This document shows, in pieces, positions 9,821-31,504 of a stretch of DNA of 64,000 bases. Numbering within the stretch: the stretch's first letter is position 1; each line of letters begins with the position of its first letter. This DNA comes from Arsukibacterium sp. UBA3155 (GTDB lineage Bacteria > Pseudomonadota > Gammaproteobacteria > Enterobacterales > Alteromonadaceae): assembly GCA_002364615.1 (NCBI GenBank), contig DEYP01000025.1, positions 1-64,000 of the forward strand, given 5' to 3'. The position numbers and the translations under genes were made by a program. Under the pieces are notes generated by a model. The model saw nothing but the letters and a program-made list of their open reading frames with translations. It was not told where the DNA came from and searched no databases.

Positions 9821-10143
9821 ATCGTTAATCACCTGGTAGTTAGTAGTTTTGTTCTAATCCGTTTGAATACAAAAATCTGTGTTCAATTAAGGGCAAAAGT
9901 GTAACGCAATTTTATGTCACTTTGATTACACCACAATTTAACCGGGAACTTTTAAGCTCTTCTTTAGTCAAAGTGCGCCTGTCATCCAAGTGTAACATGG
10001 CTGGTCAGAGTTGCGAATAATCACGACCTAAATTGATTAAAAAATATCAATTTTTGAATAAAGCGGCAGCATGCTGGTGTTTCAGCATTCGCTTGGTTAT
10101 GCTACCAACTCCTTGCAGCCCCTTGAAAAACTATCGTTTATCT
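9821..10143. other. Divergent intergenic region
   Basis: A 323-bp AT-rich stretch between the TonB receptor and the secreted phosphodiesterase-like gene. Promoters for both must lie here. I could not pick convincing -35/-10 pairs or an operator. Confidence 0.5.
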
Positions 10144-11325
10144 ATGTTTAATCATTCTGTGTTTTATTTTCTTTTGCTGTTTTCCGGAGTAGCTATGGCC
10201 GATCACGTCAACGAGCTTAAGGTCGCAACCTTCAATGTCAGCATGGAATCTTCTAATTACCTGGCGCAAGGTGAAACCGGGAACAACCGGGTATTGGCGT
10301 CAATTCTGGCAAATGGTGACAACCCGCAGGTAAAAAATATTGCCGCAATAATTCAGCGTGCAAGGCCCGATGTCCTGTTATTAAATGAGTTTGACTATAT
10401 TACTGACCCCAAGCAGGGTATTCAGGCTTTTATTAAACACTATTTAAACCAGCCTCAAGCGGGCAGCGAGCCTATTAACTATCCGTATTTTTACTATTCT
10501 ACCGTAAATACCGGACAGCCCAGCCCGTTTGATTTGGATAATAGTGGTAAAGCTACCGGTGTCGGTGCCGATGCCTGGGGTTATGGCTTTTACCCGGGCC
10601 AGTACGGTATGGTTTTGCTATCGAAATACCCGATTGATCTCAAAAACGTTCGCACGTTTCAGCATTTTAAGTGGAAAGATATGCCACAGTTTATGCCCAC
10701 ATTAAAACCTGACGGCAGCCCCTGGTATAGTAGTGAAGCATGGCAGCAAATGCCATTGTCGTCTAAGTCACACTGGGATATACCAATAAAAGTTGATAAC
10801 ACCACGGTGCATATTCTGGCAAGCCACCCTACTCCACCGGTATTTGATGGACCGGAAAACCGCAATGGCATCCGCAATCACGACGAGATCCGTTTCTGGC
10901 TGGACTATCTGGATCCGGGTAACGCTGGCTACATTTATGATGATGAAGGCAATAAAGGTGGTTTGGCAGAAAACAGTCGCTTTGTGTTACTCGGCGATTT
11001 AAATGCGTCAGCGGATGGCGATGGTGATGCTATCAGCAGTGCCATTAAAGCACTGGTAAGCCATCAGAGAATAAGCCAGAGCGTTACCCCAGAAAGTAAA
11101 GGAGCGGCTGAAAACTCGCCCGAACAGGCACATGCTAAATATCACACCGCGGCATGGCGGATGCGGGCAGATTATGTGCTGGCTTCTGACTTTGGTTTTA
11201 ACACTACCGATGGTGGGGTTTTCTGGCCGGCAAAAAATGAAGCAGACTATGCTATGGTCGGCACTCGTGGCGCCAGCTCAGATCATCGTCTGGTTTGGCT
11301 GAAGCTTGAATTAAGCGCTGAGTAA
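10144..11325 (+). CDS. Secreted endonuclease/exonuclease/phosphatase family protein
   Basis: About 393 residues after choosing ATG 10144. That start gives a clean signal peptide (MFNHSVFYFLLLF, cleaved after VAMA); an in-frame start at 10033 would put a poor leader in front. EEP-fold catalytic motifs are present: LNEFDYI (metal-binding Glu), GDLNAS (Asp/Asn) and SSDHRLVW (Asp-His). Enzymes of this fold cleave phosphodiesters or phosphomonoesters in DNA, lipids or small molecules; secreted versions often scavenge phosphate. The substrate is not predictable. A small hairpin (GCGCTGA/TCAGCGC, 11315-11333) overlaps the stop and may act as a weak terminator. Confidence 0.85.
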   Translation: MFNHSVFYFLLLFSGVAMADHVNELKVATFNVSMESSNYLAQGETGNNRVLASILANGDNPQVKNIAAIIQRARPDVLLLNEFDYITDPKQGIQAFIKHYLNQPQAGSEPINYPYFYYSTVNTGQPSPFDLDNSGKATGVGADAWGYGFYPGQYGMVLLSKYPIDLKNVRTFQHFKWKDMPQFMPTLKPDGSPWYSSEAWQQMPLSSKSHWDIPIKVDNTTVHILASHPTPPVFDGPENRNGIRNHDEIRFWLDYLDPGNAGYIYDDEGNKGGLAENSRFVLLGDLNASADGDGDAISSAIKALVSHQRISQSVTPESKGAAENSPEQAHAKYHTAAWRMRADYVLASDFGFNTTDGGVFWPAKNEADYAMVGTRGASSDHRLVWLKLELSAE

Positions 11326-21114: not shown

Positions 21115-21135
21115 GCTAACTACCGGTTAGTTAGC
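21115..21135. terminator. Hairpin between convergent arcA and arcB
   Basis: GCTAACTA (21115-21122) pairs with TAGTTAGC (21128-21135) around a 5-base loop. It sits between arcA and arcB and includes the arcB stop codon. There is no long T run on either side, so termination efficiency is uncertain. Confidence 0.5.
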
Positions 21136-23418
21136 TTCTATAAATTCTTGCAGAGCAGCCAGGTGCTGCTCTATTTTTAAATGATAGTCTACCAGTTGAC
21201 GTTCCATGCCCTGCCAGCCTTCTGGCCCCTGCTCGTACATTTTTGCCTGTTGCTGCACCCAAAGCAGGCCAACTGATGCGGCCGCACCCTTTAGCTTATG
21301 AGCCGACTCTTTAAACTCTACCTGGTTTTGCTGCACCGCAGCTTCAATCATCTTATTAATGTAGCCGGGCAATAGCTGCGCAAATAGCTGGGCGCTGCGT
21401 TTCATCGCATCAGGCCCCAATGACTGCATGTAGTCGTGCAAAGTTGCCATATCCAGGATCTGATTCTCGGTATCAATCTCAGTGCCGGGGTGTAACTGTT
21501 GCAGCTTTAACGCACTGGGCGAAAACAGTTTCGCCAGCATCTGATCAAGCTTGTTAGTGTTTATTGGTTTTGCTAAAGCGCCATCTACCTGAATATCAGT
21601 TAACTGCTCTTCAGCCTTCCTGACATTTGCACTAAGTACTACTATGGGTATAGATTGCAAATGGCTTTCACTACGAATATAGCGGGCAATCTGGTCACCG
21701 CTCATATCAGGCAACTGCATATCAAGAAGCACCAAATCAATATCGTCCTCGGTCTCCAGCAAGGCTATGGCATCTTCGCCTGTTTCTGCGTGGATAACGC
21801 TATGTCCGCGTTGCTCCAGCAGGGCTATGGCAATTTCCGCATTTAATGGTACATCTTCAATCAACAATATAACCAGTTCCGGGCAGGACACCGTGGTATC
21901 GCTTGGCGCACTTACCTGCTCAGTTGGCAGCAAGACACTAAAACAACTGCCCTCGCCGGGTTTGCTGGTTAAGGAGACTTCTCCCCCCATAGCTTCAACC
22001 AACGCACGGGACACAGACAAACCAATGCCAGAACCAACAATACTTAACCGACGGCCATCAGTAGATTTATAATACATGTCGAAGATACGCTCTTGCTCAG
22101 CGCTAGCAATGCCAATGCCGGTATCCTGAACTTTAAACAGCAGCTGCGAAAGGTCAGTATTGAGTGTGCAATCAAGGGTTATCTGGCCCTGAGCAGTAAA
22201 CTTCACGGCATTATTCAGCAGGTTCCATAGCACTTGACGCAGCCGGGTTGCGTCAAGTTTCAGATAGGTTTCCATATCTCCCTGACAACGCAGTACAAAA
22301 TGCAGCCCCTTTTGCTGACAAATCAGCTCGGCGAAGTTTGCAATATCATTTAAAAAGCCCTGAATGTGGATACTGTGAAAAACAATGTCTAAGTCCTGGC
22401 GATCAATTTTGTCTAAATCAATAATATCATTGAAAATATTACCAAGAGTTTCCGCACTGCTGAATATAGTATTAGCCCAGCTGTGCTGCTCGGGTCCTAA
22501 GGTGCTATCAAGTAAACGCCGACTTAGCCCGACAATGCCATTAAGTGGCGTTCTAAGCTCGTGGCTCAGAGTGGCAATAAATTTACCTTTGTCCTGATAG
22601 GCTTTTTCAAGGGCCTGCTCTGCCAGCTTCCGTGAGGTAATATCGCGGCCAAAACCCAGTAAGCCGATATAGCGACCCTGGCCGTCGTAAAATGGTACTT
22701 TACGCATTTCAAACCAGAGGATCTGGCCGTCCTGCTTCACAAACTCAACATCCAGCGTTAGCTCAGTGTGTTCTGCTGCTGCTTCATATTCCGTTAAAAT
22801 AGCAGCCTGAGCACTGTCTTCGGTATACAGTTCAGCAGGATGAAAGCCAATAAGCTCCTGCGATGTTTTACCCATGATAATTTCAAACATTTTGTTGCAG
22901 CTGGCCAGATGGCCGTTTTCATCGCGGTAGTAGAATAAATCGGGCGAGCTATCAACAATAGAACGGATCAGTAAACTCTGCTCTTCAAGTTCCTGCTGGG
23001 TTTTTTTACGCTCAGAGATTTCCTTGCGTAGCTCATCAACAGCACGTCTTTTCGCCTGAAACGCCTTCTTACGTTCTTCTATTTCAAAGTTCAGCTGACG
23101 GATACTGTCCTGCATATTCTGGTTTAGCAGGCGCTCCTGATGGGCAGAGTCTTTCAGGTACAGCAAGGCAGCATTGAGGTGCAGTACCAGATAAAAAACG
23201 ATAAGAATAACAATGGGGCTGGCGAACATGACAAGGATCAACTGGGCCTGCAGCATTAACCAGTCGACCTCTACCGCAAATAACGCAGCGTAGGTGTAGT
23301 GCCCCATTACCAGCAATGCCAGCAAACATAGCCATGATAAAAGGCCGAGACGAAAATTACCCCAGCGCTTTATCAATGCAGCAAAAGCTTTAACCTTTGG
23401 GTGTACCGGACTTTGCAT
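21127..23418 (-). CDS. arcB: Tripartite hybrid sensor kinase ArcB
   Basis: 763 residues (E. coli 778) with the full ArcB layout. Two TM segments (about 24-48 and 56-80), a coiled coil (about 100-150), PAS (about 150-265), HisKA with His286 in SHELRTPLNG, HATPase (N box about 397-406, G2 GSGIGLSVS), receiver with Asp566 in LLDMQLPDMSG, and HPt with His707 in KESAHKLKG. These positions parallel E. coli His292, Asp576 and His717. The phosphorelay ends on ArcA, encoded convergently 21 bp away. Shewanella, by contrast, splits this function between ArcS and HptA. A redox-active Cys in the PAS region may correspond to Cys174. Confidence 0.94.
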   Translation of the reverse strand: MQSPVHPKVKAFAALIKRWGNFRLGLLSWLCLLALLVMGHYTYAALFAVEVDWLMLQAQLILVMFASPIVILIVFYLVLHLNAALLYLKDSAHQERLLNQNMQDSIRQLNFEIEERKKAFQAKRRAVDELRKEISERKKTQQELEEQSLLIRSIVDSSPDLFYYRDENGHLASCNKMFEIIMGKTSQELIGFHPAELYTEDSAQAAILTEYEAAAEHTELTLDVEFVKQDGQILWFEMRKVPFYDGQGRYIGLLGFGRDITSRKLAEQALEKAYQDKGKFIATLSHELRTPLNGIVGLSRRLLDSTLGPEQHSWANTIFSSAETLGNIFNDIIDLDKIDRQDLDIVFHSIHIQGFLNDIANFAELICQQKGLHFVLRCQGDMETYLKLDATRLRQVLWNLLNNAVKFTAQGQITLDCTLNTDLSQLLFKVQDTGIGIASAEQERIFDMYYKSTDGRRLSIVGSGIGLSVSRALVEAMGGEVSLTSKPGEGSCFSVLLPTEQVSAPSDTTVSCPELVILLIEDVPLNAEIAIALLEQRGHSVIHAETGEDAIALLETEDDIDLVLLDMQLPDMSGDQIARYIRSESHLQSIPIVVLSANVRKAEEQLTDIQVDGALAKPINTNKLDQMLAKLFSPSALKLQQLHPGTEIDTENQILDMATLHDYMQSLGPDAMKRSAQLFAQLLPGYINKMIEAAVQQNQVEFKESAHKLKGAAASVGLLWVQQQAKMYEQGPEGWQGMERQLVDYHLKIEQHLAALQEFIEAN

Positions 23419-23457: not shown

Positions 23458-25299
23458 TTAATTGGCGGGTTGCAGATCTACCATCATATTGCGATATGAA
23501 CAGTATGCAACGTCTTCTGCTTGCTGTCTAAAACTACCCTGGCGGGTATAAGAACTATGGTCTTTATAAATTGTCACGGCATAGCCCTGACCAACTTTAA
23601 TGGCACGCCCTTCCGCCTGTCGAGCCTGAGTCATGCAAAGCAAATGACTCACTTGCTTATAATTGTCACGGTCGAATATATCACCCGAGCTCAGTAAAGG
23701 TTGCGCCAGATTATTGGGTGCAAATTTCCAGTTGGCAAAGCGGCTTCGCATCTGGTTTGCGTTTATTTCTAATTCATCACCCCGGGTCAGATAATGGGTT
23801 GCCACATTACGCAGCGCTAAGGCATTGCCTTCACCACTGCTATTAGCATCACTCATATCAACAACATAAACACCTGCCTCACCAATTACCGCCATTCGTA
23901 CAGCAGGCTGTTCAGGATTAGCACCAAAACCCACCAGTAAACCGGTATTTTCATCAATACCAAAGCCAAAACGACTTTGCGTATCGTGCAGTAAGCGGAT
24001 CAAACGCCCTTGCCGACCACGCTCTGAAAAATGGGTATCGAGCACGCCCCAACGAAATAATCCCAGACCACCGCTTGCGCTATAGGTAAGATGGCTTTCT
24101 GCCAGACCATTACTGCAACTTGAATCTTTATCGCAACCTACCTCCGGTGCTGGCAGATCGAAAGCACCAAATTGCATGGCATTAAAACTATCACCATTGG
24201 TAATCATCGGGGTGCGTTGTCCGTTAAAGCTACCACCTGACATCACGGCCGTACCGGCGCTGGTGCCTGCCACCACAATTTGACCAGCTGCCAGCATTCG
24301 CTCTATCTGCTGCAGTTCGGCTGAGGCAGAGCCGTCATCCAGCCGCAGGGCTTTCAGGGTCAAACTCTGATCGCCACCATTAAAAAAGATACCATCTGCC
24401 CGACGAATCTTTGCCACAGCGCCTTTACTGCCAGCCTGGCAAAACTCAGTTTTCTGGGTCATTAAATCAGCGTACACCCGCTGACGTTGATAACTGCCAT
24501 GCTGCTCTGCCAGATGTTTATCCAGTTCTGCACAACTATTTTTATCGCCGCTCTGCCATGCAGCCTGATAGGCTGCGCTAATAGGCAACCAACTAACATC
24601 AGCTCCGGCTTCAGTAAATAAATTAGTATAAAAATCGACAGCCGCAAAAGGATCGCGTGATGACGCAGTAACAACCAGGATCCTCGGTTTACGTTGCTCA
24701 CCCGCTATTTGCTGAGCCATCGCTACAAACTTCTGATACAGTTCCACAGTAAACTTATTTTTAGTGTTGGCCAGGTCAGCAAATTCCCGGCTCCGCTGAC
24801 TGGTGCGGTTTGCACTGCTTTCAGTCATTACCGGTACTTCCAGTTGGTCCAGCACGAAATTCAGTTCACGGCCACTTAAGCCCTCATAAACCGTGCGACC
24901 AGAAACCCAGATACCATCCACTTCAATCTCAGCGCTGCGCCATAATCTAAGCAGTTCACGTTCAGGCACGGCGTCGTTAGCCAACTGTCCCCGCAAAAAT
25001 TCTAAAATGGCCAGAGTTTGCTGCTGTTCGATAATCCGATCTTCGGACCAGAATCCCTGACTGTTTATTGCTTGCAGATGCTCTGCAGTCAATTGGAACA
25101 AACTATGCTTTTTAGCCGCAGCAGAAAATACTTCATTATTTACACAATGCCGGGTGCTGGTTGAGCTACAGGCAGCAAGCCCGCCCCCCATTAGCAGCAT
25201 TGAGTACTCAGGCATCGTTTTATTTTCATCATTGGCACTAAGAGTAAAAACCGGCATTGCCACTAAAATGGCTGATAAACAAGCAGTTATTTTTTTCAT
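23458..25299 (-). CDS. Secreted cyanophycinase (peptidase family S51)
   Basis: 613 residues. An N-terminal signal peptide (MKKITACLSAILVAMP) is followed by an extension of about 180 residues and the S51 core. The nucleophile elbow GTSAGTAVMSGG and the preceding FNGGDQSL loop are characteristic of cyanophycinase and peptidase E. Cyanophycinase cuts the Asp-Arg polymer cyanophycin into beta-Asp-Arg dipeptides. It is longer than cytoplasmic CphB (about 270), as extracellular versions are. It is divergent from a TonB receptor, YfcC permease and isoaspartyl dipeptidase, which together form a utilisation pathway. The family is certain from motifs; the substrate is inferred from context. Confidence 0.88.
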   Translation of the reverse strand: MKKITACLSAILVAMPVFTLSANDENKTMPEYSMLLMGGGLAACSSTSTRHCVNNEVFSAAAKKHSLFQLTAEHLQAINSQGFWSEDRIIEQQQTLAILEFLRGQLANDAVPERELLRLWRSAEIEVDGIWVSGRTVYEGLSGRELNFVLDQLEVPVMTESSANRTSQRSREFADLANTKNKFTVELYQKFVAMAQQIAGEQRKPRILVVTASSRDPFAAVDFYTNLFTEAGADVSWLPISAAYQAAWQSGDKNSCAELDKHLAEQHGSYQRQRVYADLMTQKTEFCQAGSKGAVAKIRRADGIFFNGGDQSLTLKALRLDDGSASAELQQIERMLAAGQIVVAGTSAGTAVMSGGSFNGQRTPMITNGDSFNAMQFGAFDLPAPEVGCDKDSSCSNGLAESHLTYSASGGLGLFRWGVLDTHFSERGRQGRLIRLLHDTQSRFGFGIDENTGLLVGFGANPEQPAVRMAVIGEAGVYVVDMSDANSSGEGNALALRNVATHYLTRGDELEINANQMRSRFANWKFAPNNLAQPLLSSGDIFDRDNYKQVSHLLCMTQARQAEGRAIKVGQGYAVTIYKDHSSYTRQGSFRQQAEDVAYCSYRNMMVDLQPAN

Positions 25300-25720
25300 C
25301 GGCTCTTTCTTATTGTTTTTCAGGCCACCAGGGCCTGCAGACTACTGATAATGCGCCAGGCGCGAACCCCATATTTAAGGCATACAGATTATCCTGTATT
25401 GACATCTTTGCCAATTAGAAGTAGAAATAAGATTGTGATCGGCACTGATTTAGATCAGTGCCGATCACAAAATAAGGCAATTTATAATTAATAACTCACT
25501 TTTCAAAGTAGCGATATGTTAAAGAAAGCACTAATGCTCGGCTCATATCACTATTCGTCCTACTACCTTTCTGAGTGGTTTAACGAATAGAAACCTATCA
25601 GGCAACTGCGGTTGACCTGAGGTGTTCTATTTAAACAAACCCATTAAAGCAAAAATAAAGCAAATAAGTGGCTGTGCCGATCCTTAGCTGATCGCATGCC
25701 CAAAAAACACAGGTGTAACT
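25300..25720. other. Divergent control region of the cyanophycin locus
   Basis: A 421-bp region between the cyanophycinase and the TonB receptor. It holds a perfect palindrome (25433-25470), an 8-bp inverted repeat CTATTCGT (25551-25558) with ACGAATAG (25583-25590), and a second GTGCCGATC at about 25672-25680, close to the receptor start. Clear sigma-70 promoters were not assigned. Confidence 0.6.
25433..25470. promoter_or_regulatory. 38-bp perfect palindrome, candidate operator
   Basis: Arms TTGTGATCGGCACTGAT (25433-25449) and its exact complement (25454-25470) around a 4-base centre, TTAG. It lies between divergent genes, so it does not end either transcript by position. It could be a regulator site or an mRNA leader hairpin for one of the genes. 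No regulator gene is adjacent. Confidence 0.6.
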
Positions 25721-28645
25721 ATGCGTAAATTAACCCCACTGGCGCTGGCTATTGCTGGCAGCTTAGTCGTGTCTCCTTTTAGCTATGCACAAGAAACGGC
25801 CAACGAAGAACAAAAAGTAGAACGAATTGAAGTAACAGGTTCACGGATCAAAGGTGTTGATCTGGAAGGCACGCAACCGTTGGTTGTTATTTCTGCCGAA
25901 CAGATTAAAAATTCTGGCGCCAGTTCAATTTATGATCTGCTTAAAGATCTAGGTCAGGTACGAGGTGGTAGTGGTACCTTTTCTACTTCTGAGAGCGGCG
26001 CAACGTCTACTTCGACTCCAGCAGGTCAGGCTGCAGCATCGCTGCGTGGTCTTGGTCCCTCTTCAACATTGACGCTGGTAAATGGCCGCCGGGTTGCAGC
26101 CTCTTCGTTTGCAGCCGGCACTCAGAACTTTGTTGACGTAAACAGCATTCCGCTGGCAGCCATTGAGCGGATAGAAGTGCTGGCAACCGGTGCTTCAGCA
26201 ATCTATGGTGCCGACGCTGTGGCCGGGGTTATTAACTATATACTGAAAACAGATTATGAAGGTGCAGAACTCAACGTATCCTACGGCAACAGTACTGCTT
26301 CATCAGATGATGCGAAAGTTAACGCCAATATTGTGCTGGGTACAGAACTGGCCGGCGGTAATCTGACCATATTTGCTGATGTCTATGATCGCAAGGGCTA
26401 CACTGCGCAGGATCGTGACTTTACCCGCAACCCAAACCTGGTAAGTAACTACTCTTACTTACCAAAAGGCGTACCTAATATTTATTTCTTTTCAGCCGTT
26501 AGTGGCGATGAAATAGCCAGCCCGGGCTGCACCAGCCAACTGGTTACCACCGAATTTGGCGAGCAAATCTGTGCATACTATGCAAACGAGGATGATGTAT
26601 TAGAAACGCCGTTTGAAAGTGCCTCAGCCGGCTTTAATTTCCGCAAAGAGCTGGGCAACAACCTGATATGGAATACCGACTTTTTCTACAGCCACACCTC
26701 GTCGGTTTCTTCATCCAGCCCGGCACCAATTAATCAGGTTGATGACAGCGAGGGCGCCTGGGTTCGGGAAACCGCACTGGATGTGTTCCCTGACGCCGTG
26801 CGCGACTCGTTGCTCGATCAAATTTATATTGACCCGTTCACCAGTGTGGCGGGTCAGCGGTTGTTTGGTTTTCAGTTCGATGCTCGCTTTAATACACCAA
26901 GAACTGTTGAAGTTACCAGCGATTCGTTCCGTCTTGTTAGCAGTATCGCTGGCAGCACTGAAAACTGGGACTGGGAAACTGCAGCGCTGTTATCACGCTC
27001 TGAGTCAGAGCAGCGCGCCATAGCCGGGATTTACAACCGCTATAAATATCATGCTGCAATCGCCGGTGAGCTTTGCCAGGACGGTACTATCGCCAGTTAC
27101 AATAGTGATGCCGACACGTTAACGTGCGGCAGTGGTGCAGGTCTGGCGGGTGTTTATAATCCGTTTTTAGCCAATGATGCCGGTAATGAAGCACTGTTAG
27201 CACTGGCTCAGGAGGTACCTACCCGCGATGGCGTCAGCACAGTTTATGGTTGGGATGCACGGATAAGTGGCGATTTATTTGAGTTGAATGGTCAGCTGGT
27301 ACGCTCGGCATTTGGTCTTGAATTACGTAAAGAAGAAATTACTGATACGCCATCTGCTAACGCTCAGGCCAGTGCCGCCAATGGTTACCTGGTAGATGTC
27401 TTCGGCTTTGGTTCCAGCCTCTCTGCTGCTGATCGAACCCAGATGGCCGCTTTTGCCGAAATTTATGCGCCATTAGGTGATACGGTTGAGTTACAGCTGG
27501 CTGGCCGCTACGACCACTACGACGATTTTGGCAGTACCTTTAACCCGAAAGTGGGTATTACCTGGCGTCCGCTGGAAAGCTTAGTGATTCGTGGCTCCTG
27601 GGCCACGTCATTCCGGGCACCGTCACTTACTCAGGCAGGGGTAAAACTAAGAACCACTACCGCAACCTTTGATTGTAGTGCTAACCAAACCGTTTCTGAT
27701 TTGTACTGTGACGGTGCCGGTTTTACCAGCAGCCCGAATGTACTGGAACTGGGTAATGCTGCGCTTGAAGCCGAAACTTCAGAGTCTGTCAGCGTTGGTT
27801 TTGGCTGGAGCCCGACTCAGGACACCACGCTAACCGTCGATTACTGGCAGTTTGAGCATAAAAAACTGGTCGATACCGATATGACCGCGATGCTGGCCCG
27901 CACGGCAACCGATGCCAGTGTCCGTCATTGTGGCCTGGTGCCTGATGGCGAACTGGGTATCTCTTACGATCCTGACTTGTGTGATGTTACCGATCTGGCC
28001 GGCAGAACTGTTGAAGATGACGGCGCCAATATGGCAGAAATCTTGGATGCCTGGGTTGAGTACGACGATCCGCGCTTTGCTGAATTGCCGCTGTTCCGTG
28101 ACCATGTTATCCAGCTGGATAACGTTGGCCGTCAGGATGTTAGCGGTATTGATGCTAGTTTCAGCCATACACTTGATTTGGCCGGTGGCCGCTTAGGGCT
28201 GGATCTTGACTGGACCCACTATCTGGAGTTTGAGCGCAATAAAGCCGGCTCGGATGAAGTTGAAGCACTCATTGGTACTTTCCGCTACCCGGAAAATATC
28301 GGTAGTGCCCGCATTTCCTGGAGTGGCGAAGCGCTTTATCTGGGCCTGACAGCACTTTATACCTCGTCATACCTGGACGATACTGCGCGGTTACGCAGTC
28401 GCAACCTGGACGAGCTTGATGAGTTAGGTCTGATTGACGCTGATGGCACTCGTGATGTCTCAGCCTGGACCACACTGCGGGCCAACATTGGTTATGATTT
28501 TGAGCATGCATCGCTTAACTTCACTATCGACAACCTGCTGGATCGTGACCCACCAGCGGTATATGGCAGCAGCCGCGGGTTCGACTCTATTAACCACAAC
28601 GCCTTTGGCCGCAACTATCGTGTATCCTTTAGCTACTTCTTTTAA
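25721..28645 (+). CDS. TonB-dependent receptor, cyanophycin locus
   Basis: 974 residues. The signal peptide starts MRKLTPLALAIAGSL and is cleaved near SYAQ. The TonB box region and plug follow (VERIEVTGSRIKG, then SAEQIKNSGASSIYDLL), then a large barrel ending YRVSFSYFF. There is no CarboxypepD_reg domain, unlike the receptor at 6701. Its place between a secreted cyanophycinase and a permease plus isoaspartyl dipeptidase suggests that it imports beta-Asp-Arg dipeptides or short cyanophycin fragments. That substrate is inferred from neighbours only. Confidence 0.9.
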   Translation: MRKLTPLALAIAGSLVVSPFSYAQETANEEQKVERIEVTGSRIKGVDLEGTQPLVVISAEQIKNSGASSIYDLLKDLGQVRGGSGTFSTSESGATSTSTPAGQAAASLRGLGPSSTLTLVNGRRVAASSFAAGTQNFVDVNSIPLAAIERIEVLATGASAIYGADAVAGVINYILKTDYEGAELNVSYGNSTASSDDAKVNANIVLGTELAGGNLTIFADVYDRKGYTAQDRDFTRNPNLVSNYSYLPKGVPNIYFFSAVSGDEIASPGCTSQLVTTEFGEQICAYYANEDDVLETPFESASAGFNFRKELGNNLIWNTDFFYSHTSSVSSSSPAPINQVDDSEGAWVRETALDVFPDAVRDSLLDQIYIDPFTSVAGQRLFGFQFDARFNTPRTVEVTSDSFRLVSSIAGSTENWDWETAALLSRSESEQRAIAGIYNRYKYHAAIAGELCQDGTIASYNSDADTLTCGSGAGLAGVYNPFLANDAGNEALLALAQEVPTRDGVSTVYGWDARISGDLFELNGQLVRSAFGLELRKEEITDTPSANAQASAANGYLVDVFGFGSSLSAADRTQMAAFAEIYAPLGDTVELQLAGRYDHYDDFGSTFNPKVGITWRPLESLVIRGSWATSFRAPSLTQAGVKLRTTTATFDCSANQTVSDLYCDGAGFTSSPNVLELGNAALEAETSESVSVGFGWSPTQDTTLTVDYWQFEHKKLVDTDMTAMLARTATDASVRHCGLVPDGELGISYDPDLCDVTDLAGRTVEDDGANMAEILDAWVEYDDPRFAELPLFRDHVIQLDNVGRQDVSGIDASFSHTLDLAGGRLGLDLDWTHYLEFERNKAGSDEVEALIGTFRYPENIGSARISWSGEALYLGLTALYTSSYLDDTARLRSRNLDELDELGLIDADGTRDVSAWTTLRANIGYDFEHASLNFTIDNLLDRDPPAVYGSSRGFDSINHNAFGRNYRVSFSYFF

Positions 28646-28656
28646 TTAGCAAAGAC

Positions 28657-28691
28657 GCGGGCGTAAATACTACAACTGGTATTACGCCCGC
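28657..28691 (+). terminator. Hairpin between receptor and permease genes
   Basis: GCGGGCGTAAATAC (28657-28670) pairs with GTATTACGCCCGC (28679-28691), with one bulged A and an 8-base loop. No T run follows, so it is more likely a partial terminator or mRNA-stabilising hairpin that lowers permease expression relative to the receptor. Confidence 0.5.
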
Positions 28692-28723
28692 TAATTACCG
28701 ATAGCTATTACAAGGCTTACATT

Positions 28724-30208
28724 ATGGCTAACCAAGTAAAAAAACCGGTAGCAATGCCGGACGCCTTTGTCATCCTGTTTTTTGTGATGATTCTGGCTGC
28801 GGTTGCATCGCATCTGGTCCCTGCCGGCTCATTTAGTTTACTCGAGCCTGCGCCGGTGGCCGAAGGGGCAGCCAAACTTAAGGGTAAAATTGACCCAAAC
28901 AGCTTTACGCTGGTAACAGATGCACAACAAGGTGTGCCGCTGTTTGCGGAGGGCGGTGGCATTGGCTTTTTTAACTATGCCTTTGAAGGGCTGGTATCCG
29001 GCGATAAGTGGGGATCAGCCATTGGTGTAGTGGCTTTTATTCTGCTTACGGGTGGTGCTTTTGGCATCATTATGAAAACCGGTGCTATTCACAACGGTAT
29101 TCTGGCGCTTATCGAAAAAACCAAACGAATGGAATTTGTATTTATTCCACTGATGTTTGGCTTATTTTCACTAGGTGGTGCGGTATTTGGTATGGGCGAG
29201 GAAGCAATCGCTTTTTGTATCATTTTGCTGCCATTGATGCTGGCACTTGGTTATGACGCCATCACCACGGTGTTGGTTACCTACGTTGCTACCCAAATTG
29301 GTTTTGCAACCTCCTGGATGAACCCGTTTAATGTCGCTATTGCCCAGGGCATTGCGGAAATTCCATTAATGTCTGGCAAAGACTTACGCATCGCTATGTG
29401 GGTGATTTTCACTTTGTTTGGCATGGTTTTCACCATGCGCTATGCCGCCAGAATAAAAGCGCAGCCAGAGCTGTCGTTAAGTTTCAATACCGACCAGAAA
29501 TTGCGGGCACAACAAAGTGCAGAAGCAAAAAACGACTACAATCAGCTCGATAGCATTATTTTACTGGCATTCTTCGCCGGCCTGGTCTGGATTATCTGGG
29601 GTGTAACCACTCGCCAATACTATATTCCGGAGATTGCCAGCCAATTCTTTACTATTGGTATTATTATCGCCGTTATCGCGGTATTTGGTAAACGTTTAAC
29701 CATGAATGAAGCGGCCGATGGTTTTAAACATGGCGCTGCAGAGCTTTTACCCGCCGCACTGATTGTCGGTATGGCCAAAGGCATAGTGCTGTTGCTAGGT
29801 GGCGATGAGCCCAATTCGCCGTCGGTACTAAACACCCTGCTTTATTACAGCGGCCAGGCGCTTGGCGATTTACCGTCGTACTTGTCCGCCTGGTTAATGC
29901 TGATTATTCAGTCGGTCATAAACTTCTTTGTTGCTTCTGGTTCAGGTCAGGCGGCGCTAACTATGCCACTTATCGCGCCGTTGGCCGATTTAGTCGGACT
30001 GTCGCGCCAAATTGCGGTATTAGCATTCCAGCTCGGTGATGGTTTGACCAACTGCATTATCCCGACGTCAGCGGCGTTAATCGGTTGTTTAGGTGTGGTA
30101 AGGGTTGACTGGACCGTGTGGTTTCGTTTTGTCTGGAAATTACAGCTTTGGCTGTTTGCGCTGGCCAGCAGCTTTATGCTTATCGCTGTGGCAATAGGTT
30201 ATCAATAG
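28724..30208 (+). CDS. YfcC/ArcD-like inner-membrane permease
   Basis: 494 residues with about 12 hydrophobic segments. Matches the YfcC family (COG1288-type, related to basic amino acid and C4-dicarboxylate carriers): PDAFVILFFVMILAAV at the start, the GMGEEAIAF motif, and a C-terminal NFFVASGSGQAALTMP segment. In this locus it could carry beta-Asp-Arg dipeptides across the inner membrane, or exchange arginine. It lies 78 bp after the TonB receptor and 29 bp before the dipeptidase start. Confidence 0.85.
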   Translation: MANQVKKPVAMPDAFVILFFVMILAAVASHLVPAGSFSLLEPAPVAEGAAKLKGKIDPNSFTLVTDAQQGVPLFAEGGGIGFFNYAFEGLVSGDKWGSAIGVVAFILLTGGAFGIIMKTGAIHNGILALIEKTKRMEFVFIPLMFGLFSLGGAVFGMGEEAIAFCIILLPLMLALGYDAITTVLVTYVATQIGFATSWMNPFNVAIAQGIAEIPLMSGKDLRIAMWVIFTLFGMVFTMRYAARIKAQPELSLSFNTDQKLRAQQSAEAKNDYNQLDSIILLAFFAGLVWIIWGVTTRQYYIPEIASQFFTIGIIIAVIAVFGKRLTMNEAADGFKHGAAELLPAALIVGMAKGIVLLLGGDEPNSPSVLNTLLYYSGQALGDLPSYLSAWLMLIIQSVINFFVASGSGQAALTMPLIAPLADLVGLSRQIAVLAFQLGDGLTNCIIPTSAALIGCLGVVRVDWTVWFRFVWKLQLWLFALASSFMLIAVAIGYQ

Positions 30209-30237
30209 CAGCAAATCGGCTGTTCGAGGTTAATATT

Positions 30238-31419
30238 TTGAATTCAATTGTACTTATAAAAAATGCCGAGCTGTTTGCGCCACAGCCACTTGGCAAATTG
30301 GACGTAGTAATAGCCGGCGGTCGTATAGCCGCCATTGGCAATGACTTTAACATGGCTGGCAGCAATTTGCCGGTGACGATTATCGATGGCAGTGACTATT
30401 ACCTGACCCCGGGTTTTGTCGACTCGCTGGTACACTTTATTGGCGGTGGCGGTGAAGGTGGTTTTGCCACCCGCACCCCGGAAATGCAACTTACTGATGC
30501 CACCTTAGGGGGTGTGACTACTGCTATTGGTGTGCTGGGGACCGATGCCACCACCCGCACATTAACCAACCTGCTGGCCAAAGCACATGCACTAGATATA
30601 GAAGGTATTACCACCTACTGCCATACCGGCTCATATGAAATTCCCTGCCGTACCTTAACGGGTAGTATTACTGATGATTTAATCTTAATTGATAAATTTA
30701 TTGGTGTAGGTGAAATCGCGATAAGTGATCATCGCTCATCACAGCCTACCATTGATGAGATCCGTAAGATCGCAGCAGCAGCCAGAGTGGGCGGTATTTT
30801 GGCAGGTAAGAGTGGGGTCGTCAGCGTGCATATGGGTGCTGGCGAACGTATCCTGCAACCTATTTATCAGGCGGTTTCTGGCACAGAATTAACCTTAAAG
30901 CAGTTTTATCCTACCCATATGAACCGCAACCGCCGGGTTTTCGAAGCCGGCCTTGAATTTGCTAAAAAAGGCGGCGTGATTGACTTCACCACCAGTACCA
31001 CAGAGTACGATCTAAAACACGGCGAAGTCGCAGCAGCAGCGGCGCTGGCTGAGGCACTGCAGGAAGATATCAATCCGCTGCATCTGACGCTTAGCTCAGA
31101 CGGCAATGCCAGTCTGCCAATTTACACGGACAACGGTGATTTACTGGGGCTGCAAGTTGGCCAGGTAAGCACGCTATATCAGTCAGCCCGCGATGCAATA
31201 TTAAAGCACAAGGTAAGTATCAGTGACGCCATTTGCGCTATCACCCAGTCGCCAGCGGCTGTGTTAGGACTAAAGCTAAAAGGTCGATTGGCAATCGGCT
31301 TAGATGCCGATTTGGTATTGCTTAATCGCGACGATCTGGCTATCAACCAGGTATTTGCCAAGGGCAAACAGCTAGTAAATTCAGGCAAAGCCACGGTAAA
31401 AGGCATGTTTGAGCGCTAA
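30238..31419 (+). CDS. Isoaspartyl dipeptidase-like amidohydrolase (IadA family), altered metal site
   Basis: 393 residues from a TTG start at 30238. That start is chosen because CGAGGT lies 8 bp upstream and the length then equals E. coli IadA (390). The family pattern is clear: HFIGGGGEGGFATRTPEMQL, VGGILAGKSGVV, YPTHMNRN and LSSDGNAS. These keep the beta-metal histidines (SVHMG, PTHMN) and the Asp base. The first His of the HxH pair is Leu (DSLVHFI), and the carbamylated Lys position reads Gly-Glu (GVGEIAISD). It would split beta-Asp-Arg into aspartate and arginine, ending the cyanophycin pathway. Activity is inferred. Confidence 0.87.
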   Translation: MNSIVLIKNAELFAPQPLGKLDVVIAGGRIAAIGNDFNMAGSNLPVTIIDGSDYYLTPGFVDSLVHFIGGGGEGGFATRTPEMQLTDATLGGVTTAIGVLGTDATTRTLTNLLAKAHALDIEGITTYCHTGSYEIPCRTLTGSITDDLILIDKFIGVGEIAISDHRSSQPTIDEIRKIAAAARVGGILAGKSGVVSVHMGAGERILQPIYQAVSGTELTLKQFYPTHMNRNRRVFEAGLEFAKKGGVIDFTTSTTEYDLKHGEVAAAAALAEALQEDINPLHLTLSSDGNASLPIYTDNGDLLGLQVGQVSTLYQSARDAILKHKVSISDAICAITQSPAAVLGLKLKGRLAIGLDADLVLLNRDDLAINQVFAKGKQLVNSGKATVKGMFER

Positions 31420-31479
31420 CATTGCACTAAGCACGTTTAGCATAAATATATGCAAACCAAATGTACTACTAGAACTTAG

Positions 31480-31504
31480 AAAGCTGCTTCGGCAGCTTTT
31501 TTTT
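31480..31504 (+). terminator. Intrinsic terminator of the cyanophycin operon
   Basis: AAAGCTGC (31480-31487), a TTCG tetraloop and GCAGCTTT (31492-31499), followed by a T run to 31504. It lies 61 bp after the dipeptidase stop. Confidence 0.92.

Follow-up and report, generated by a model that had tools for sequence, protein, structure and literature searches.

How does a bacterium gain access to cyanophycin lying outside its cells, and what tells it to make the uptake machinery? The question is raised by a locus of Arsukibacterium sp. UBA3155 (Gammaproteobacteria, Alteromonadaceae; assembly GCA_002364615.1), carried by the first 64,000 nucleotides of contig DEYP01000025.1, hereafter the window, in which a gene for a secreted S51 peptidase stands divergent from genes for a TonB-dependent receptor, a YfcC-type permease and an IadA-like dipeptidase. 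An initial annotation of this DNA had proposed that the four products cut the polymer outside the cell, import the fragments through both membranes and split them inside. At a probability of about three in four, we favour a cyanophycin-scavenging locus of this kind, in which the receptor-YfcC-IadA operon is moreover controlled by a short leader open reading frame (ORF) that the initial annotation did not list.

The four genes and the strong terminator behind them proved to be real, as ORFs, as matches to family models and as a folded UUCG hairpin (Table 1), and they form a divergent pair of transcription units, one with the S51 gene on the minus strand and one with receptor, yfcC and iadA on the plus strand. 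The S51 protein has an apparent Sec signal peptide (read by eye), matches Peptidase_S51 (28.1 bits, cut-off 23.9) and finds its closest fold in cyanophycinase, the match to CphB covering model residues 30-522 with 257 aligned. The cyanophycinase serine motif noticed earlier turned out to belong to a complete set: the Ser-His-Glu triad with its GxSxG motif (S347, H423, E450) and the pocket residues Q311, D421, T422, R427, R429 and R432 are all present, which is the published active-site set of CphE_al, Thr-for-Gln swap included. Compared with CphE_al of Pseudomonas alcaligenes DIP1, as described in excerpts of PMC3235067, the window protein shares the Sec signal, the triad, the Q/D/T/R/R/R pocket and an identical spacing from D to E, His and Glu being 27 apart in both, and differs in being 613 residues long against about 419 (1260 bp), with long additional segments within and behind the S51 core. 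From its residues, this protein would cut extracellular cyanophycin and release beta-Asp-Arg. Among its presumed partners, the receptor matched both the Plug and the barrel domain, none of the 18 NCBIfam receptor models listed reaching its own cut-off, and the permease exceeded the equivalog cut-off of NF008611 (712.7 bits, cut-off 500).

These genes were found together well beyond the window. S51 was detected in all 31 genomes of the genus (E <= 0.001), including that of UBA3155 (3.9 Mb, 30 contigs, 99.8% complete), and 24 of the 32 S51 neighbourhoods taken from the 30 other genomes, two of which gave two each, contained full YfcC and IadA ORFs. At the level of the order, S51 occurred in 39 of 394 genomes (E <= 1e-20), and YfcC and IadA ORFs accompanied it in 30 of the 38 non-genus loci fetched from these 39 places. 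A further set of 78 named loci, whose close relatives of the window locus belong to Arsukibacterium and Rheinheimera, was collected by a pattern requiring part of the catalytic motif; it comprised 61 loci with receptor, YfcC and IadA, seven with YfcC and IadA and no receptor match beside them, three with receptor and YfcC only (two on cut contigs), one with only an IadA remnant and a distant YfcC of 31% identity (L172, the locus of genome G001) and six with none. In three of the exceptions followed up (L129, L146, L148) YfcC and IadA lie elsewhere in the genome, as does a 41% IadA in a fourth (L165). The dedicated receptor that had been predicted is thus present at most loci, yet 7 of the 68 with YfcC and IadA have no match to it beside them, and some species lack it. 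S51 is divergent from receptor-YfcC-IadA in a first arrangement, follows them in one direction in a second (receptor-YfcC-IadA-S51) and precedes YfcC-IadA in one direction in a third. That the genes merely lie next to each other by chance, having no common function, would fit the single arcA-gltB location shared by many copies of the genus, but the set recurs elsewhere, in three arrangements and in other families, and is lost together with the catalytic residues of S51 (below), and we consider this explanation already contradicted and scarcely credible. A cyanophycinase, judged by its active site and not as an equivalog, is thus clustered with iadA and a transporter, the composition of a scavenging locus, and no cyanophycin synthetase exceeded the TIGR02068 cut-off in any of the 31 genus genomes. 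The identities of receptor and YfcC/IadA do not follow that of S51 (L036-L055; at L042, for instance, 53% for the receptor and 93% for YfcC against 79% for S51), which suggests that parts of the operon were exchanged between species.

The recurrence of the set in relatives and its joint loss answer one of the refuting conditions of the initial annotation, that the genes would not occur together in relatives. S51 lost its catalytic residues six separate times, always without adjacent uptake and dipeptidase genes, and purifying selection kept the protein. On a tree of 71 rows (70 of the window-S51 family and a lipoprotein-like paralogue), 14 rows are motif-dead: the GGDQ and G[TS]SAG motifs are broken in all of them, the catalytic Ser is gone in 13 (L058 has a Ser within a broken motif) and the His in 11, every row having lost at least one of the two. 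This state requires six changes, all forced by starred branches, a number reached by none of 500 shuffles (mean 12.9). Of the 56 motif-intact rows, 55 had an IadA ORF in the locus fetched, the sole exception being G001, and of the 14 motif-dead rows none had one; independent pairs pointed in the same direction in 5.8 of 6 cases on average (sign test, median p 0.031). Ten of the 14 dead-S51 genomes lack a full IadA genome-wide, two (G420, G013) have one together with a second, intact S51 locus, and two (G109, G182) have a distant copy of 40-41% identity.

The dead copies could also be pseudogenes that simply decay once the module is gone, which is where they sit, and their dN/dS within the genus (0.069-0.105 in the four unsaturated pairs, three of them among the same three sequences) exceeds the ratio in most motif-intact pairs of the genus (of the ten with finite dS, eight lie at 0.034-0.080 and the two that involve G001 at 0.169-0.197; the range over all 14 motif-intact pairs with finite dS is 0.034-0.585). 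Against decay, all 14 copies are open at 558-642 residues, the ratios of the usable pairs are far below 1, six cysteines are conserved in 13 or more of the 14, and one dead clade covers five species of another family, and we regard simple decay as quite improbable. Our guess is that the dead protein still serves at the cell surface, by binding or as a scaffold. Six conversions into a pseudoenzyme without adjacent uptake genes make it testable which job an enzyme keeps after its pathway is lost. In G001, where the module is lost and the S51 motif intact (L062), dN/dS is raised to 0.17-0.20 relative to two near relatives (L060-L062), and decay is perhaps in progress. In family f16 (L085, L088, L102, L105, L109), the dead S51 is followed by a free-standing Hpt-like protein of about 123 residues in place of an ArcB-like kinase, confirmed as Hpt by Pfam in two of five (L085, L088), an apparent reduction of ArcB to its Hpt.

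The dipeptidase has its own peculiarity. The assignment to the IadA type stood, with 499 bits against TIGR01975 (beta-aspartyl-peptidase, cut-off 331.25), but the expected first zinc site did not: in place of the HxH pair, a leucine replaces the first histidine. This leucine occurs in all 123 cluster copies (redundant between sets), whose other eight checked positions match the Glu type. Since 12 of 22 chosen comparison copies from outside such clusters are likewise LxH with Glu, the others being HxH with Glu (five) or with Lys (five), LxH is a wider type and not cluster-specific. E. coli NagA is a one-metal amidohydrolase, and by analogy LxH enzymes may work with one zinc; they offer a natural test of metal number in IadA. 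In E. coli IadA and LmIadA, zinc is bound by both histidines of the HxH pair, according to the consulted sections of PMC10206079. Relative to Type I enzymes, as excerpts on CpsIadA (PMC5517026) and LmIadA (PMC10206079) present them, the window IadA shares the TIGR01975 match, the metal-binding Glu and the remaining His/Asp, and differs in the Leu of the HxH pair, which would predict a one-metal site. The LxH type is not among the two IadA types in the available text of PMC5517026, and no literature search was aimed at it.

A candidate answer to the question of control lies between S51 and the receptor, where a stretch of some 110 bp hardly varies among eight loci (the window and seven relatives). 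Inside this stretch, 130 nt before the receptor start, is an unannotated ORF of 24 codons. This leader stands upstream of the module in 22 of 24 loci of the genus, in 28 of 30 from the rest of the order and in all 68 named loci, hence in 118 of 122 (the named set overlapping the others), the receptor start having been missed automatically at L081, L157 and L169, where the leader was located from its position or from the ORF that follows. It was absent from all 15 module-less loci checked (14 with a dead S51, and G001), and from L129. Its 89 distinct nucleotide versions encode 67 peptides and all have 24 codons, the last in-frame ATG giving 19-32 residues being taken as start; they were collected by a YLSEWxxx-stop pattern, so that the invariance of YLSEW is built in, while length, codon degeneracy and stop bias are not. 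Position 22 is F or W, position 23 D or N, and position 24 E or N. The stops are TAG in 63 versions, TAA in 26 and TGA in none, compared with 296 TAA, 73 TGA and 71 TAG among the S51, receptor, YfcC and IadA genes at these loci (440 distinct genes). Immediately behind the stop, the first 40 nt have a mean folding energy of -12.0 kcal/mol (mean z -2.28, 67 versions), with z below -1.5 in 69%; the two 40-nt windows that follow have a mean z of -0.23 each, and one placed within the leader has -0.66. Among eight distinct sequences of the Rheinheimera type, one base pair of the hairpin is substituted at both positions (G-C to A-U) and no pair is disrupted.

TnaC and SpeFL are short arrest leader ORFs, conserved at their C-terminus up to the stop and placed upstream of catabolic or transport genes; the stop of TnaC is UGA. 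The window leader has the same build, a short ORF conserved up to its stop and upstream of the genes it would control, and differs in its unrelated sequence, in the UAG or UAA stop of 89 of 89 versions and in the hairpin directly behind it. From sequence it looks like a leader of the TnaC/SpeFL type, and it probably controls the uptake genes. Apart from one clade of four loci (below), it is kept in the ten loci (seven genomes) that have YfcC-IadA without a receptor. The pathway could also exist with the 24-codon ORF encoding a functional small protein, such as an envelope micropeptide, instead of acting in cis; its strong amino-acid conservation despite synonymous change (TCN or AGY for Ser19) indicates selection on the peptide. 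This alternative appears unlikely in view of the position of the ORF, which in the cases that were followed precedes a gene for a receptor, a permease, an S51 protein or a binding protein, of its fixed length and strong UAG/UAA bias, and of the hairpin that remains folded directly after the stop while its sequence changes.

The leader is not confined to the module. Across the 394 order genomes, a degenerate YLSEW[..][DN]E-stop pattern matched 40 times, in 38 genomes, and its reversed control never; by coordinates, 30 lie at S51 loci (G377 by contig only), eight in family f25, and two are further copies in G395. In f25 the next gene encodes a binding protein in 8 of 8 cases, with LxH-iadA in the seven not cut by a contig end, and the one binding protein tested exceeds its Lys/Arg/Orn subfamily cut-off (277.7 bits, cut-off 256.35, NCBIfam). 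The UBA3155 genome contains three copies, in the window and on contigs C1 and C11, that of C1 ending HLSEWFDE-stop before an S51 gene with a PPC domain. Leaders precede S51+PPC genes in five genomes (UBA3155, G274, G082, a Colwellia at L148, and G395, where PPC is under cut-off); most of these copies have the ending HLSEWFD[EL], and their starts are less clear. A search allowing up to three mismatches gave chance hits at the rate of the reversed control (0-5 per genome), and from it only new copies with 0-1 mismatch were accepted, plus one in G082 (C4) by its neighbour gene. Among 369 class-level genomes, 365 of them from other orders, a pattern omitting GAG at codon 24 matched that of UBA3155 only, a weak absence because 37 of the 89 known leaders use GAG. 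Three side observations belong here. C1 carries tandem secreted S51 genes with a DTHF motif (L069:8663-10072 and 10141-11199), PPC being in the first. On C11, a second TonB receptor (L250:10120-12729) follows a leader of 22 codons whose last residues are YLSEWFNN-stop, and neither IadA nor YfcC was seen next to this receptor. In family f9, LxH-iadA follows an apparent amino-acid ABC transporter (L201:4866-9141) with no YLSEW leader, which was absent from all four f9 loci checked.

Since the leader recurs with genes for cyanophycinase-like S51, isoaspartyl dipeptidase and Arg/Lys-type binding proteins, an arginine-containing signal is suggested. We propose tentatively, at somewhat under even odds, a family of 24-codon arrest peptides (M..KKA..L..Y.Y..[YF]YLSEWF[DN]E-stop) that would sense a cyanophycin breakdown product at an RF1 stop and, with the hairpin, govern an unlinked, multi-locus regulon of receptor-YfcC-IadA, PPC-type secreted cyanophycinases and Arg/Lys ABC uptake with IadA. 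If the leader is such a metabolite-sensing arrest peptide, a small class gains a new family, and YLSEWF[DN]E-stop becomes a cheap genomic marker for genes using cyanophycin, a nitrogen source from dying cyanobacteria.

From the gene set, the CphE residues, the linkage and co-loss, and the conservation of leader and hairpin, all read from the DNA, we infer the substrate, the direction of transport, the translation of the leader, the arrest and its ligand as follows. Secreted S51 would trim extracellular cyanophycin to beta-Asp-Arg dipeptides, which, as such or as short oligomers, would enter through the TonB receptor and then the YfcC permease, and in the cytoplasm LxH-type IadA would split the dipeptides into Asp and Arg. 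The receptor-YfcC-IadA transcript would begin with the leader, its conserved C-terminus, its RF1-type stop and the hairpin; in the presence of a pathway product (Arg, Asp or beta-Asp-Arg), the ribosome would pause at the UAG/UAA stop and block hairpin formation, letting expression continue into the operon.

Several observations weigh against this scheme. S51 scores 109.7 bits against the TIGR02069 cyanophycinase equivalog (cut-off 126.6), and because it falls short we claim a CphE-like active site and not an equivalog. Two Idiomarina genomes (L166, L171) have a motif-intact S51 but lack both IadA and YfcC genome-wide (E <= 1e-15), G001 keeps a motif-intact S51 beside only a 63-residue IadA remnant (upstream), and the leader is missing from G001 and both Idiomarina loci. 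It is also missing at L066, L067, L103 and L104, one clade of one-direction S51-YfcC-IadA loci, and 6 of 13 f25 genomes with iadA have no exact match to it; 31% of the 67 versions fail the z threshold of -1.5 for the hairpin. IadA activity is not assured, a canonical zinc ligand being replaced in every cluster copy. Leaders before receptors with no IadA seen beside them (C11, and C6 of G395) imply a regulon wider than dipeptide use. S51 might instead release beta-aspartyl peptides from another substrate, for instance Lys-rich soluble cyanophycin or isoaspartyl-damaged protein, the locus then being a general isoaspartyl peptide scavenger: two dipeptidases of cyanophycin clusters, one IadA and one IaaA, were promiscuous in vitro (PMC10206079, in part), the window S51 misses the TIGR02069 cut-off, and the genome has another S51, lipoprotein-like, that exceeds it. 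Against this, the pocket retains every residue published for CphE, the three arginines included, and a Lys/Arg/Orn-type binding protein is also encoded together with the leader and LxH-iadA; we judge this broader role improbable. The Idiomarina S51 genes (L166:9998-11674, L171:9905-11581) lie near pyrE (by eye), and similarly placed copies at L106 and L107 are dead.

The receptor for cyanophycin products, thought new in the initial annotation, has precedents. In Citromicrobium sp. JLT1363, according to the available text of PMC3400609 (2012), a TonB receptor gene lies next to a cyanophycinase gene and is predicted from this context to import cyanophycin products; it is a gene-context remark, and that text contains neither a YfcC/IadA operon nor a leader. 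Excerpts of PMC10206079 cite the cyanophycin utilization locus of a Bacteroidetes (Ben Hania et al. 2017), which likewise unites cyanophycinase, iadA and a transporter for scavenging external cyanophycin; by that citing description, the present locus is set apart by its plug/barrel receptor, YfcC, LxH IadA, leader and occurrence in Gammaproteobacteria. The same excerpts give clustered cyanophycinase and dipeptidase genes in 45 of 52 genomes without cphA1, and extracellular cyanophycin use was inferred from a cyanophycinase gene in a Thalassotalea genome (PMC7564069, in part). We found no literature on the leader peptide string or linking cyanophycinase with pseudoenzyme (PDB 7uqv, titled 'pseudo-CphB', keeps the serine motif), and combining leader peptide, TonB-dependent and ribosome stalling returned only unrelated work, as far as titles and the beginnings of abstracts tell. 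Within the reach of these searches, both the leader family and the recurrent S51 pseudoenzyme are new.

Table 1 Features of the cyanophycin locus and its surroundings (window coordinates)
Feature	Position	Strand	Details
ArcB-like hybrid histidine kinase, not part of the pathway	21127..23418	-	784.6 bits, under the ArcB model cut-off of 838
Secreted S51 peptidase, CphE active-site set	23458..25299	-	613 aa; ORF and Peptidase_S51 match
Perfect palindrome of 38 bp between S51 and receptor	25433..25470	.	-29.2 kcal/mol, z -10.0
Unannotated 24-codon leader ORF, MLKKALMLGSYHYSSYYLSEWFNE*, stop TAG	25516..25590	+	conservation across loci
Hairpin directly after the leader stop codon	25593..25623	+	-14.7 kcal/mol, z -3.2
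TonB-dependent outer-membrane receptor	25721..28645	+	974 aa; Plug and TonB_dep_Rec_b-barrel
YfcC-type inner-membrane permease (putative basic amino acid antiporter family)	28724..30208	+	494 aa; NF008611
IadA-like isoaspartyl dipeptidase, LxH variant (Leu64 replaces the first Zn-binding His)	30238..31419	+	TIGR01975
Intrinsic terminator, 3' end of the receptor-YfcC-IadA operon	31478..31501	+	UUCG hairpin, -13.1 kcal/mol, z -4.9, then U's

Around these genes, the locus is flanked by arcA on one side and gltB on the other, and the ArcB-like kinase lies 39 bp downstream of S51 on the same strand and is probably co-transcribed with it. The palindrome between S51 and the receptor is a stronger hairpin than the terminator (-29.2 against -13.1 kcal/mol), but 18 relatives checked there have no perfect arm of at least 10, and it is probably not part of the mechanism. 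The second cyanophycinase of the genome, the lipoprotein-like S51 (by eye) on contig C29 (L068:8928-10292), carries a canonical DQHF motif and 178.3 bits against TIGR02069, with no TonB-dependent receptor, YfcC or IadA match within its 19.5-kb neighbourhood. The operon terminator was missed by a simple hairpin scan, yet confirmed by folding. For IadA, a mechanical ORF list places the start at a GTG (30118) inside yfcC; the TTG at 30238 behind a GAGG is the likely start, and the form beginning there aligns with solved IadA from residue 4 or 5 onward.

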